Assembly (NCBI RefSeq): GCF_913060805.1
Contig: NZ_CAJXTC010000016.1
Coordinates: 1-64,000, forward strand
Origin: an uncultured Draconibacterium sp.
GTDB taxonomy: Bacteria; Bacteroidota; Bacteroidia; Bacteroidales; Prolixibacteraceae
Length of the DNA stretch: 64,000 bases
Direction of reading: 5' to 3'
Shown: piece after piece, positions 7,932 through 54,775 of the stretch
Position numbering within the stretch: position 1 is the first letter of the stretch
Layout: each line of letters opens with the position of its first letter
Program-made: the position numbers and the translations under genes
The notes under the pieces: generated by a model
The model's database searches: none
What the model saw: the letters and a program-made list of their open reading frames with translations, nothing else
Told to the model about the DNA's origin: nothing

Positions 7932-9851
7932 ATGCAAAACGAATCCAGGGAATTACAACGTCTGCACGAGGGCTTCAGGTTCTTTTCTTACCTGCTGCTC
8001 TTTGTGGCACTTTATATCAGTCAGCTTCCTTTTTTTATTGAGAAAGGATTGTATATCCCTGAATTCTCTCCGATAACCGAAAAGCTATTACGCATCCGCT
8101 TTTTAGGAGACACAGTGCTGGCAAAGACGGTGTGCCTTGTTTTTCTGGTAACAACCTGTATTGGAACCAAAGCTAAAAAAGACCGCGATCTGAAAGTTTC
8201 CAGTATCGTGATTCAGATTTTGATCGGACTGGCAATGTATTGGGGAAGTTTACTGATTTTAAAAACACCACTTATGTATCTGTTACTTTCCTTCTTTGGC
8301 TTTGTACTGCTGAACATCGGTTTTGACAACATCTCCAAACTGATCAATGTGAATTTGATGAAAGACCGCTTTAACCTCGAAAATGAAAGTTTTCCGCAGG
8401 AGCAGGCCTATGAGGGCAATGAGTATTCTGTCAACCTGGAAACTCTTTATCAATACCAAAACAAACAATACGAAGGCTGGATTAATGTGGTCAATCCTTT
8501 TCGGGGAACCATTGTCATCGGTACGCCGGGATCCGGAAAATCCTATTCCGTAGTGATTCCTTTTATCAAACAACATTTGGAGAAAGGCTTTGCCATGTGC
8601 GTGTATGATTTTAAATATCCCGATCTGTCGCAGGTAACCTATAACTATTTTCTTAAAGCCAAAAAGGGAAAAGCCTTACCGGAATCTGCCGGATTTTATG
8701 TGATTAATTTTGAGAACATCCGCAAATCCTTTCGTTGCAATCCGCTGGCACCGGAGCTGATGGAAAGCCCTATTGATGCTTTTGAATCTTCACGAACCAT
8801 ACTCTATAACCTGAACCGCGAATGGATCCGCAAGCAGGGAGAGTTTTTTGCCGAATCAGCCATTTCTTTTTTTGCAGCGGTAATCTGGTTTCTGAAAAAG
8901 TATAAGAAAGGGGAATATTGTACCCTGCCTCATGCCATGGAGCTGCTTCAGTTGGATTACGACGATCTGTTTACCATTCTGGCCAGGGAAAAGGACGTGG
9001 AAAACATCGTCAATCCATTCGTGAACGCACATAAACGAGGAGCGATCAAGCAGCTGGAAGGTCAGTTGGGAAGCCTTAAAATAGCCATCTCCAAGATTAT
9101 CAGTAAAGAAATTTACTGGATCTGTTCAGGCAATGATTTTTCACTCGACATCAATAATCTCAAACATCCCAAAGTCGTATGTCTGGCCAATAATCCCCTT
9201 CGCATTGAAATGTATGGAGCCGTACTGTCACTGTTTATCACACGGATGATGAAAGTAATCAATCAGAAAGGGCAGCATAAGTCATCCTTGATCTTTGATG
9301 AGCTTCCGACGATTTATTTTCGGGGACTGGACACTATGATAGCTACAGCGCGCAGCAACAGAATATCCACACTGGCAGGGCTACAAACTATTGACCAGTT
9401 GATCCGGGATTATGGAAAGGAGCAGGCCAACGCCATGCTCACCAATATCGGGAATGTTTTTGCGGGGCAATCCATTGGCGAAACAGCAAAATTTATACAA
9501 AACCGGATGGGGAAGATCCTGCAGGAACGTCAAACCATCAATATTAACCGGGAACTCCAAACTTCAACCTTTACAACCCAGATGGATTTTCTGGTACCGG
9601 AAGGAAAGATTGCCACACTACCGCAAGGATATATGGTGGGGCAGGTGGCCGATAACTTTGGTCAGCAGGTGAGCCAGCGCAATTTTAACTGCCTGATTGA
9701 TGTGGATACCCAGGCCATCGAAAAGGAAGAGCAACAATTTAAAGATATCCCGGACATCTACAGTTTCGACAATATTGGCAAGGTGCTGGAAAACAACCGC
9801 AACAAGATCTGCAACGATATAATGGAAATACTCCGGGATGAAACCTGGTAA
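7932..9851 (+). CDS. Type IV coupling protein (VirD4/TraG family, MobC-like)
   Basis: 639 residues. Four hydrophobic segments lie within the first 140 residues, followed by the cytoplasmic ATPase: Walker A GTPGSGKSYS near residue 200, Walker B SSLIFDELPTIYF near residue 455, and the sensor-like ATARSNRISTLAGLQT just after. Coupling proteins recruit the relaxase-DNA complex to the secretion channel. It links the Tra genes on its left to the mobilisation genes on its right. CTnDOT names the corresponding gene mobC; I leave the symbol blank because naming differs between elements. The protein seems complete. Confidence 0.92.
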   Translation: MQNESRELQRLHEGFRFFSYLLLFVALYISQLPFFIEKGLYIPEFSPITEKLLRIRFLGDTVLAKTVCLVFLVTTCIGTKAKKDRDLKVSSIVIQILIGLAMYWGSLLILKTPLMYLLLSFFGFVLLNIGFDNISKLINVNLMKDRFNLENESFPQEQAYEGNEYSVNLETLYQYQNKQYEGWINVVNPFRGTIVIGTPGSGKSYSVVIPFIKQHLEKGFAMCVYDFKYPDLSQVTYNYFLKAKKGKALPESAGFYVINFENIRKSFRCNPLAPELMESPIDAFESSRTILYNLNREWIRKQGEFFAESAISFFAAVIWFLKKYKKGEYCTLPHAMELLQLDYDDLFTILAREKDVENIVNPFVNAHKRGAIKQLEGQLGSLKIAISKIISKEIYWICSGNDFSLDINNLKHPKVVCLANNPLRIEMYGAVLSLFITRMMKVINQKGQHKSSLIFDELPTIYFRGLDTMIATARSNRISTLAGLQTIDQLIRDYGKEQANAMLTNIGNVFAGQSIGETAKFIQNRMGKILQERQTININRELQTSTFTTQMDFLVPEGKIATLPQGYMVGQVADNFGQQVSQRNFNCLIDVDTQAIEKEEQQFKDIPDIYSFDNIGKVLENNRNKICNDIMEILRDETW

Positions 9852-9893: not shown

Positions 9894-10562
9894 ATGGAAC
9901 AAAGTACCCGTATTAAAAAAGAAGAAATCCCCTTTGACAAACTGGAAAAGGTAGGTGTAAACAAAGATTTTGTGAATCGCATGGATGAGAATGAGCTCAA
10001 GGATTTTCTGAACGGATTCCGTTCTCAAAAACTTTATACCATTAATGCCACCATTAATGATGAACAGAAGCGTATTCCAGCCAAACTTCGCTTAAAAAAA
10101 GAGGAGGACGGAACCATCAAAGTAAAAGTACATCCGATTCAGCGTTTGAGTATTCCCGAGAAATACATGGGACATAAATTTACCGATGAAGAACGGAACA
10201 AACTGGTGGCGGAGCGTAACCTGGGGAAAACCATCGAGCTCACCGGCAAGAATGGTAAAAAGGACAGTTATTACCTGGCACTCGATCCGAAAACCAATGA
10301 GCTGATTCCACTGCGTACAAAAAACATCAAGGTGCCGGACAAGATCAAAGGAGCAACACTGTCGGCCGAACAAAAGCAAAAACTGGCCAGGGGAGAAAAA
10401 GTTTATCTCGATAAAATGACCGGAAGAAACGGAAAGCAATTTGGAGCTGCGTTACAGGTGGATGCCGCGAACCGAACCATTAATTTTTCGGAATTCAAAC
10501 AGGAAAAAGCCCAGGATAAGAAGCTGGCAAAAAGCAAAGGCGTACAACAGGAGATGGGGTAA
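9894..10562 (+). CDS. DUF3945/DUF4099-type mobilisation-region protein
   Basis: 222 residues, soluble, basic and without a signal peptide. It contains two similar segments, LSIPEKYMGHKFTDEERNKL near residue 82 and a second, IKVPDKIKGATLSAEQKQKL near 147, each followed by a G-x-x-(I/V)-x-L and GKNGK/GRNGK motif. This repeated layout is typical of DUF3945-containing proteins often found beside coupling-protein and relaxase genes in Bacteroidetes mobile elements. Biochemical function is not established; a DNA-processing or accessory role is inferred from context. It ends just before the candidate oriT. Confidence 0.75.
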   Translation: MEQSTRIKKEEIPFDKLEKVGVNKDFVNRMDENELKDFLNGFRSQKLYTINATINDEQKRIPAKLRLKKEEDGTIKVKVHPIQRLSIPEKYMGHKFTDEERNKLVAERNLGKTIELTGKNGKKDSYYLALDPKTNELIPLRTKNIKVPDKIKGATLSAEQKQKLARGEKVYLDKMTGRNGKQFGAALQVDAANRTINFSEFKQEKAQDKKLAKSKGVQQEMG

Positions 10563-10607: not shown

Positions 10608-10713
10608 GGGGGAGGGGAATGCAAGATGTGCATTTGTATATACAAATGCCTTGTCATCTTGCCCGGCAGGGGCCGGACGGTTTTTCCAAAACCGACAAGG
10701 ATTCCCCTCCCCC
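10608..10713. other. Candidate origin of transfer (oriT): nested palindromes
   Basis: The stretch between the DUF3945 gene and the relaxase operon is almost entirely self-complementary. A perfect 13-bp inverted repeat (10608-10620 with 10701-10713) encloses a perfect 8-bp pair (10621-10628 with 10655-10662), which in turn encloses a perfect 20-bp palindrome (10630-10649). Two more hairpins follow (10663-10667 with 10672-10676; 10678-10684 with 10688-10694). A 6-bp pair (10649-10654 with 10695-10700) offers an alternative fold. The position just 5' of the accessory and relaxase genes is where oriT usually lies. The nick site cannot be named from sequence. Confidence 0.7.
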
Positions 10714-10736: not shown

Positions 10737-11105
10737 ATGCCAACAAAATCGACTGAAAAAGACAAACGGGATCAGATGCTGCTCGTAAGGGTAAGCAGGG
10801 ATGAAAAGCTTCGGATAAAGGCCTTGACCCGATCCGAAGGTTATCCCTGTATGAGCGATTATGTACGATCCCGGATCTTCAGACGATTGGACAAGAAGGT
10901 TATTTCGTTGAATGAAAATACCAGTCAGCAACTGCAGGAATTGGATTTTGAACTCAATAAAATCGGTGTCAACCTAAACCAGCTTTCCAAAAAAATGAAT
11001 TCTTTTTCCGGCTATAATGTTGGCGATAACGACCGGCAATTGCTAAAACAAGCTTTTCAGATGATGATGAAATGCCTTGCTTTTCTGCAAGAGCAACTTA
11101 ACTAA
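10737..11105 (+). CDS. Ribbon-helix-helix mobilisation accessory protein (MobA/BmgB-like)
   Basis: 122 residues. The first 60 show the ribbon-helix-helix pattern of relaxosome accessory proteins (MLLVRVSRDEKLRIKALT, then GYPCMSDYVRSRIF), and the second half is helical with LDFELNKIGVNLNQLSKKMN, a conserved feature of the bacterial mobilisation-protein family (MobC-type Pfam). Such proteins bind oriT and help the relaxase open the strands. The start lies 24 bases after the palindromic oriT candidate, and the relaxase ATG comes 8 bases after the stop, so the two genes form one operon. Confidence 0.85.
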   Translation: MPTKSTEKDKRDQMLLVRVSRDEKLRIKALTRSEGYPCMSDYVRSRIFRRLDKKVISLNENTSQQLQELDFELNKIGVNLNQLSKKMNSFSGYNVGDNDRQLLKQAFQMMMKCLAFLQEQLN

Positions 11106-11113
11106 TCCTTGCT

Positions 11114-12016
11114 ATGGTTATCGTAATCCATCAGTCGTCCAGTACACAAAATGCTTTGTCCTACAATGAAAAGAAAGTGGAACAAAAGAAAGCTGTATTT
11201 TATAAAAGTGCCAATACGCCAACCATCAATCCTTTTGCCGGAACCAAACAGAACCGCTTGAATACCCTTAAAAAGATTGAGGATATGAATACCCGTGTAA
11301 AATGTAAAGGACTGCATATTTCTGTAAATCCGACGGTGACAGATCTGGTAAAACTGGGAGACACTGGCATCCGTACCGAAATCGGAAACCTGATGGAACA
11401 CCTGGGCTATGGTAACCAACCTTACTTTGTATATAAACACACCGATTTGGACCGGACACACTTTCATATTGTTTCCACGCGTATTGACAAAACAACGTTC
11501 CGAAAGATCAGGGATGATTACGAGAAACAGAAGACGCAGCGGTTTATCAAATCGCTGGAACAAAAATACGATCTGACGAAAGAACAAAGCCAGGTTCAAT
11601 CCAATCTGAAATTTTCTGCAGGAAGCAGAAACCTGAAACAAAACCTGGAGAGTTTGTTTTACCAGCTGAATCAGATTGATTCTATAAGTACTAAACAACT
11701 TTACAACAAATCTCTGGAGCTTTTTAATGTGGAAGTCCGGAAATCGGGAAGAGGACACGTTGTTTTTATTACCGATGAAAACGGAAGCCCGATTCGTTAT
11801 CCCATTCGGCTTTCTGAATTTGAAGAAAGGCCACGATTTCATATTTCACAAAGTGCTGAACAGGAGCAGCAAATTGCTTCGCCCATGATTGACGAATTTC
11901 AGTTGGCGCAATGGGCAAGGGATGTGAACCGGCTGATAGAGCGGAGTAACCGGCGTAAAAAGGAACCAACTATGAAATATAAGGTGAAGAATAGGGATAA
12001 GGGTATGAGCCGGTGA
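11114..12016 (+). CDS. Relaxase (MobB-like, relaxase/mobilisation nuclease family)
   Basis: 300 residues. The N-terminal half is the relaxase domain: the histidine triad HTDLDRTHFHIVSTR near residue 112 fits the HxDxxHxH metal-binding motif, and candidate catalytic tyrosines lie near the N-terminus (SYNEKK at about residue 16, FYKSANTP at about 30). The enzyme nicks oriT and stays covalently bound to the transferred strand. The length is toward the short end for Bacteroidetes relaxases, but both ends look natural (stop followed by a non-coding gap). It is encoded directly after its accessory protein. Confidence 0.92.
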   Translation: MVIVIHQSSSTQNALSYNEKKVEQKKAVFYKSANTPTINPFAGTKQNRLNTLKKIEDMNTRVKCKGLHISVNPTVTDLVKLGDTGIRTEIGNLMEHLGYGNQPYFVYKHTDLDRTHFHIVSTRIDKTTFRKIRDDYEKQKTQRFIKSLEQKYDLTKEQSQVQSNLKFSAGSRNLKQNLESLFYQLNQIDSISTKQLYNKSLELFNVEVRKSGRGHVVFITDENGSPIRYPIRLSEFEERPRFHISQSAEQEQQIASPMIDEFQLAQWARDVNRLIERSNRRKKEPTMKYKVKNRDKGMSR

Positions 12017-54382: not shown

Positions 54383-54423
54383 ACTTTACCAATACATTAG
54401 TTATAATATAGAATTTGATATTG

Positions 54424-54453
54424 GGGGAGGCCGTAAGGTTTCCCCTTTTTTTG
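54424..54453 (+). terminator. Intrinsic terminator of the oad operon
   Basis: A GC-rich interrupted stem (gggga and cc pairing with gg and tcccc around a GTAA loop) is followed by seven T. It lies about 40 bases after the oadB stop codon. Confidence 0.8.
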
Positions 54454-54471
54454 TGCACTATTCAAGGTGCA

Positions 54472-54775
54472 ATTGAGCAGGTGACTTCAAGTCACCTGCT
54501 CAATCTGTTTAAAAAGAATCCGGCGGATTCAACTACTTAGAGCAAATCGATTTTATGAAAAGGATACGACTCCGGCCGGAGTCGTAAAATTTATCGGCCA
54601 TTTTTGCTATAATTATGCGATGCTTCTGGCATCATATAAATCAGTGCAGCTGCCCCTCGTTTGTAACAAGGGGGGTAGCATTTGTATTGCTATTTCTGAG
54701 GTCGTTAAAAACGACAAGATTAGAAACCCCTCGTTGGGTAGGGCAAAGTCACCTGCTGAATTTGTTTAAAACATT
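54472..54775. repeat. Mosaic of hairpin-forming repeats (REP/MITE-like)
   Basis: In order: a 14-bp perfect hairpin (54472-54485 with 54491-54504), a perfect 20-bp palindrome (54566-54585), a gatgc/gcatc hairpin (54619-54623 with 54629-54633), a cccct/agggg hairpin (about 54654-54674) and a gtcgt/acgac hairpin near 54702-54716. A 25-base stretch beginning at 54490 (agtcacctgctcaatctgtt) recurs with two changes near 54749. The two copies bracket the rest. This is a repeat element without its own gene. Confidence 0.65.

Follow-up and report, generated by a model that had tools for sequence, protein, structure and literature searches.

What is the function of the nested, almost fully palindromic structure that lies in front of the relaxase operon of an uncultured Draconibacterium sp. 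(Prolixibacteraceae)? An earlier note on this DNA had read it as an origin of transfer (oriT) in which an alternative pairing could switch the single strand between two states. The window analysed here is the whole stretch of 64,000 nucleotides from contig NZ_CAJXTC010000016.1. Computation established the repeats and their fold, the gene context, the conservation of the site and the covariation of its arms; the last three, together with a MOBP-like nic motif, support the oriT reading, and from the sequence the 106 bases are very probably the oriT of a Bacteroidetes-type ICE.

A nested inverted-repeat structure and its gene neighbourhood

Upstream of the site lie genes for a TraG-type ATPase, TraJ, TraK, TraM, TraN, a coupling protein and a DUF4099/DUF3945 protein, and downstream follow a NikA-like gene, which we take to be of the DNA-binding kind, and the PF03432 relaxase gene. 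With the models TIGR03779-TIGR03783, TraG and TraK score above the cut-off, and TraJ, TraM and TraN match below theirs. The neighbourhood has the TraG/J/K/M/N-type matches of a Bacteroidetes conjugative transposon and, adjoining the site, the PF03432 relaxase and small accessory gene of a MOBP (IncP/IncI-like) oriT. The tra genes and the coupling protein match Bacteroidetes models as in the MobA/MobB/MobC elements of Bacteroides; unlike in those, the relaxase does not reach the cut-off of the MobB model, nor the accessory protein that of MobA. Plasmid relaxases annotated as mobB, among those listed, share 27.6-34.6% identity with the relaxase of the window, and on a B. fragilis plasmid (L172) the core motif is present and the G-rich arm is absent.

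The perfect 13-bp outer and 8-bp inner repeats and the perfect 20-bp palindrome were found as the earlier note had described them, and both further hairpins are present as well (Table 1). The structure does not fill the whole gap between the flanking genes as had been stated, but takes up 106 of the 174 intergenic bases, with the DUF3945 stop at 10562 and the start of the following gene at 10737; its right end lies 23 bp upstream of the mob operon.

Table 1. Coordinates of the site and of the genes next to it.
Feature	Position	Strand	Basis or remark
Coupling protein, Bacteroid_MobC-like	7932-9851	+	796 bits; the cut-off is 900
DUF4099/DUF3945 protein, gene directly upstream of the site	9894-10562	+	domain match
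Very probable oriT core, nested inverted repeats	10608-10713		repeats, fold, relatives
Outer arm beside nic (ATTCCCCTCCCCC on the minus strand)	10608-10620	-	pairs with 10701-10713 (13 bp, perfect); the transferred strand would have it as its 5' leader
Predicted nic (^)	10621/10622	-	5'-CATCTTG(10622)^C(10621)ATTCCCC; conserved motif, 8-nt gap, MOBP consensus
Nic motif (GCAAGATGTG, plus-strand reading)	10621-10630	-	identical in 30/33 aligned sites
20-bp perfect palindrome	10630-10649		likely binding site of a NikA-like dimer, by analogy
Alternative 7-bp pair	10649-10655/10694-10700		clashes with the inner arms, compatible with the outer arms
Inner arm (CATCTTGC)	10655-10662	+	complementary to the nic motif (10621-10628; 8 bp, perfect); itself nic-like on the plus strand
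Hairpin 1, CCGGC-AGGG-GCCGG	10663-10676		5-bp stem (10663-10667/10672-10676); seen in predicted folds
Hairpin 2, CGGTTTT-TCC-AAAACCG	10678-10694		7-bp stem (10678-10684/10688-10694); repeat search and predicted folds
Distal outer arm	10701-10713	-	predicted to remain close to the 3' end after transfer of the strand; covaries with 10608-10620
NikA/MobC-like accessory mobilisation protein	10737-11105	+	PF21983, PF19514; weak Bacteroid_MobA match
MOBP-type relaxase	11114-12016	+	PF03432; Bacteroid_MobB-like, under the cut-off of that model

Single-strand folding, which the earlier note had proposed as a check, bore the structure out. As single-stranded DNA, positions 10600-10720 fold at -38.1 kcal/mol compared to -15.55 +/- 2.58 kcal/mol for 200 dinucleotide shuffles (z -8.7), none of which was as low; the minus strand gave z -7.9 and an RNA fold of the site z -7.8. 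In a scan of the 64 kb with 3194 windows of 121 nt each, the site was the strongest outlier (z -7.8 after G+C correction), followed by position 54421 (z -6.0). This second strongest single-strand fold (54421-54541) contains a hairpin with the stem GAGCAGGTGACTT.

Relatives of the site and the predicted nic

Similar sites were detected by BLAST in 15 of the 37 genomes of the genus and in 36 of the 140 genomes of the family; at the level of the order they were seen in 5 of 393 genomes, a count of little weight as at most two candidates per genome were scored. The core pattern, GCAAGATGT plus the palindrome, occurs in 34 of the 140 genomes of the family; reversed as a control, it occurs in none of the 140. 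A slightly stricter pattern was found in at least 114 stretches of the named genome collection and in no contig of the viral collection. The 80 named loci analysed are those listed among these stretches, and 71 of them carry the name of a member of the Bacteroidota. A BLAST search of plasmids with 121 bases returned five short matches (E 0.3), which were regarded as chance.

Some of the matches stand apart. Five contigs titled as Alphaproteobacteria (L106, L108, L110, L113, L117) show the same core motif followed by (C/T/G)ATCTTGG, and with our own model a relaxase ORF was seen in the DNA examined only at L113. In Spirosoma arboris (L170:3830-3910) the core is symmetric and has the nic motif on both strands, and could in principle start transfer in either direction.

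The 80 listed loci gave 81 matches, of which 43 had a relaxase ORF nearby, in 42 cases downstream on the same strand within 3 kb; the remaining one comes from reading a symmetric site a second time. Among the 38 matches with no relaxase ORF in the DNA examined, 22 had less than 3 kb of downstream sequence. For the alignment 33 of 39 distinct sites were used, including that of the window; four sites of relaxase-less islands (L003, L004, L017, L026) and two of a nested element (L018, L029) were left out. In stretches of 2.1-3.2 kb a NikA-like ORF lies beside 32 and a relaxase ORF beside 31 of the 33 sites; the stretch examined lacks the relaxase ORF at L042 and both ORFs at L043.

Across the 33 sites the palindrome is paired in 99.6% of cells, and four of its eight pairs changed on both sides. 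The inner repeat is paired in 86.5% of cells with zero double changes, hairpin 1 in 59.4%, and hairpin 2 in 58.8% of cells in the aligned columns, with double changes in five of six pairs. The most conserved half of the site is GCAAGATGTG together with the palindrome, which suggests that nic lies on the minus strand. Part of this left-half conservation is built in, as many rows came from BLAST matches over that half. Read on the minus strand, the palindrome is followed by 8 nt (ACATCTTG) and then C, and an inverted repeat thus stands 8 nt before the predicted nic, as in MOBP oriTs. The published MOBP nick consensus is YATCCTG^Y, i.e., (C/T)ATCCTG(C/T) (PMC3772185), and CATCTTG^C is one base away from its CATCCTG. 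In eleven relatives, with relaxase identities of 49-50% (six), 37% (three) and 29-31% (two, both with an imperfect palindrome), palindrome-ACA(T/A/G)CTTG^C is retained, and it is read from the strand that does not encode the relaxase; as the remote ones were found by searching the nic motif itself with one mismatch allowed, this conservation is partly built in, too.

By analogy with known MOBP systems, from which nic position, NikA binding and transfer direction are inferred, a dimer of the NikA-like protein would bind the palindrome and bring the MOBP-type relaxase to nic, which on the minus strand is separated from the palindrome by 8 nt. The relaxase would cut between 10622 and 10621 and remain on the 5' end (C10621), and the strand would depart leftwards with the tra genes first, so that the mob genes would enter last. 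The account as a whole, i.e., an oriT with NikA-like binding of the palindrome, a minus-strand nic and joining by the outer arms, we hold to be probable.

The MOBP oriTs of IncP (RP4) and IncI1 (R64), compared here by motifs and descriptions, likewise come with a PF03432-type relaxase and a small accessory protein, and have an inverted repeat just 5' of the YATC(C/T)TG^Y motif. In difference to these, the site has CTTG for CCTG and an extra pair of outer arms that straddles the predicted nic.

Copies of the site distant from relaxase genes

Of the 39 pattern sites in the genus, 25 have a relaxase gene at a distance of up to 3 kb and 14 have none in this range, as judged for PF03432-type relaxases by a PF03432 scan of 11 genomes and a relaxase homologue search of all 37. 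An integrase gene stands beside nine of the 14 distant sites. Seven of these genes have Phage_integrase domains; that at L052 is inferred from 96.6% DNA identity to a Phage_integrase-bearing locus, and that at L047 matches the arm-binding domain only. At the other five sites no integrase was seen by eye among the ORFs within 6.5 kb; two of these five occupy the same chromosomal place in two species and may be remnants.

L047, L048, L049 (with L073) and L050 (with L074) form one class of integrase islands, each of which carries a closely similar copy of the oriT. Two of them are in the genome of the window, where they reach the contig ends and are unbounded. The other two are bounded integrase islands of the MGI kind: the island of G003 (L049 and L073) measures 14.9 kb and has an 18-bp repeat, of which one copy lies where tRNA-Arg(CCT) ends, and that of G027 (L050 and L074) measures 13.9 kb and has a 44-bp repeat, one copy of which is the 3' part of tRNA-Pro(TGG). 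No PF03432 relaxase match was obtained near any of the four sites. In the G003 island, a Pfam scan covered 13 of the 20 listed ORFs of at least 70 aa and showed none of them to be a relaxase; the other seven ORFs have at most 112 aa. Its genes encode RhuM, Cro-like and HTH_17 regulators, an AAA_25 ATPase, a primase and a phage tape-measure-like protein, and there is a weak match to a terminase small subunit (E 0.0009); no capsid family was found among the proteins scanned from the four islands.

All four islands keep the nic motif, the palindrome and one hairpin; an outer match of 8 nt is kept in three of them. In three of the six island pairs (L047/L049, L047/L050, L048/L050) the oriT block of ~150 bp, with 90-92% identity, is all that matches in 4.5 kb; the other three pairs have further sequence in common besides it. 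As only this block is common to those three pairs, we read it as being under selection for function in cis. That the outer arms act as an end-joining splint across nic and that, at the same time, the relaxase-less islands ride the relaxosomes of resident elements with a whole structured oriT is a combination we regard as rather doubtful.

Islands with a helper-like oriT and without a relaxase are described for MGIVflInd1 with SXT and, as plasmids, for S. aureus with pWBG749 (PMC5397120, PMC5704250, PMC8136818). In sequence, the islands found here resemble these oriT mimics as integrase islands with a helper-like oriT that lack a relaxase; they differ in belonging to Bacteroidota and in that they would go with a MOBP-type instead of a MobH relaxase. 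In a 2017 review, the groups given for IMEs free of a relaxase are Firmicutes and Proteobacteria (PMC5704250).

Other groups of copies were seen as well. L219, L220, L222, L225 and L052 have a block of 1.9-3.1 kb (pairwise) in common that comprises the oriT and a tyrosine integrase of 406 aa (439 aa as called in L219). This block occupies different places in four genomes, and L219 and L225 adjoin a tRNA-Leu gene; a second copy of the tRNA-Leu attachment core does not fix the island ends of this class. L224, L226 and L227 share a block of 0.8-1.0 kb with the oriT, in which no integrase was seen, in three genomes. At L051:10060-13890 (G033) and L053 (G001:C17) an element interrupts the nic motif in the oriT of a second mobilisable element, with the junctions GCAAGAT (left) and AGATGTG (right). 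It has its own oriT-like site, a NikA-like protein, a PF03432 relaxase and an IS110-type DEDD transposase (domains from L051). Streptococcal IMEs within ICE oriTs are a precedent (PMC7563843).

Covariation of the outer arms and the alternative readings

The outer arms covary across the relatives by most, not all, measures. Over the 33 sites, 87.6% of their cells are paired (77.9% for shuffled arms), double changes are seen in 51 cells (18.2 +/- 4.9), and the covariation score is 0.340 (0.176); none of 500 shuffles reached any of these values, and with one arm slid by 1-3 columns the score was at most 0.254. The number of pairs with a double change (6 against 4.8 in shuffles, reached by 101 of 500; 7 when slid by +1) and that of further pair types (17 against 15.8, reached by 133 of 500) did not stand out. 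As the shuffles do not preserve relatedness, more weight is put on the slid control and on the swapping of arms, in which the mean longest match is 11.4 nt with the own partner, 8.1 nt with that of another row and 5.3 nt when shuffled (35 rows). Typical exchanges are GGGGGAGGGG/CCCCTCCCCC to CAAAGAGGGG/CCCCTCTTTG and AAT/ATT to ACT/AGT. The conserved arms that the earlier note expected of homologous elements are seen in most rows: 24 of the 33 have an exact match of 11 nt or longer, and the match is short in four (L019, L027, L030, L037) and absent in five (L016, L038, L039, L041, L043). The longest matches reach 17 nt, and the right arm is located at +75 to +92. In nine rows the match crosses nic, by 2-4 bases in seven (L002, L012, L013, L014, L015, L023, L025) and by one base in two (L011, L042). 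The arms thus look selected to match each other.

The outer arms flank the predicted nic, so that the transferred strand would have one of them as its 5' leader and the other ~80-90 nt ahead of its 3' end; if they pair, the two strand ends would meet at one junction where the relaxase can rejoin them. For R64 and R1162, the inner arm of the inverted repeat is described as necessary for initiation, whereas termination requires the whole repeat (PMC5863519), and by analogy the outer arms could serve termination in the way of that whole repeat. We put forward such holding of the strand ends tentatively, from geometry and covariation, and give slightly more weight to a reading, itself still short of an even chance, in which the arms are two inverted sites of one double-strand-binding protein that shapes the oriT. 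The protein could belong to the relaxosome, be the DUF3945 protein or a host factor, and the covariation would then come from a shared reader and not from pairing. The presumed DNA binding of the NikA-like protein is in line with this, as are lineages elsewhere in which the G-rich, nic-proximal arm has no C-rich partner in the stretch seen. Against it, separate flanking sites need not be complementary over nic, as seven of the 33 rows are by 2-4 bases, and matches of up to 17 nt and a right arm found anywhere from +75 to +92 speak against it as well.

The switch proposed by the earlier note, in which 10649-10654 and 10695-10700 would pair in alternation with the outer arms, did not survive. 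The competing pair does exist, with 7 bp instead of 6, but it nests inside the outer arms and is compatible with them; its clash is with the inner 8-bp repeat, and a fold in which it replaces the inner arms has -32.6 instead of -37.4 kcal/mol, a cost of 4.8 kcal/mol. It shows no conservation: over the 33 sites 52.8% of its cells are paired, while shuffling gives 50.7% and a shift by +3 columns 60.4%. In the oriT of pMV158 (MOBV), several inverted repeats overlap and the region around nic is structured (PMC5863519), and this oriT is a precedent for mutually exclusive hairpins as a switch; there, a MOBV relaxase goes with three such hairpins, whereas those of our site are nested and compatible. 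We consider the switch hardly credible, and it is possible that in the closest relatives the pair competes with the inner arms, by which it would free the nic strand. A nic on the plus strand, at CATCTTG(10661)^C(10662)CCGGC and with the mob genes entering first, is improbable, but the best placed of the other positions. Past the nick this motif is closer than that of the minus strand to the RP4 nick oligo TATCCTG^CCCGGC, C10658, T10660, G10661 and C10663 are each at least 90% conserved, and some lineages carry GCCTG^TCCGGC, nearer still to CCTG; these lineages, and the left-half conservation that is partly built in, move it slightly up and our account as a whole slightly down. It is ranked second as CATCTTG occurs in only 11 of 33 rows (YATCTTG in 19), compared to 30 of 33 for the other half, its distance to the palindrome varies, it is lost in the four islands L047-L050, and relatives at 29-37% relaxase identity have no plus-strand CTTG beside the palindrome. 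Lastly, the structure could mainly control the mob operon, in which case the palindrome would be the operator that the NikA/MobC-like protein binds, or the stem would be an RNA leader. The structure ends close ahead of this operon, its RNA fold is strong, and MobC of RA3 is reported to autoregulate its own operon (PMC4175270). However, the islands L047-L050 retain the block with no relaxase gene nearby, and Rfam at the gathering threshold returned one tRNA from the 64-kb window and nothing at the site. We therefore think control as its main role very unlikely; an operator role in addition to the oriT function is possible.

oriTs with inverted repeats and oriT mimicry are already known. In a literature search that had most subscription journals outside its reach, neither a covarying outer pair across nic nor relaxase-less islands in this group were found, and it gave no match for an oriT of Prolixibacteraceae. 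The site provides a concrete candidate oriT and nic for the conjugative elements of Prolixibacteraceae, and its paired arms make the rejoining of the strand open to experiment. The relaxase-less copies suggest that gene flow here includes islands that would be missed by relaxase-based surveys.
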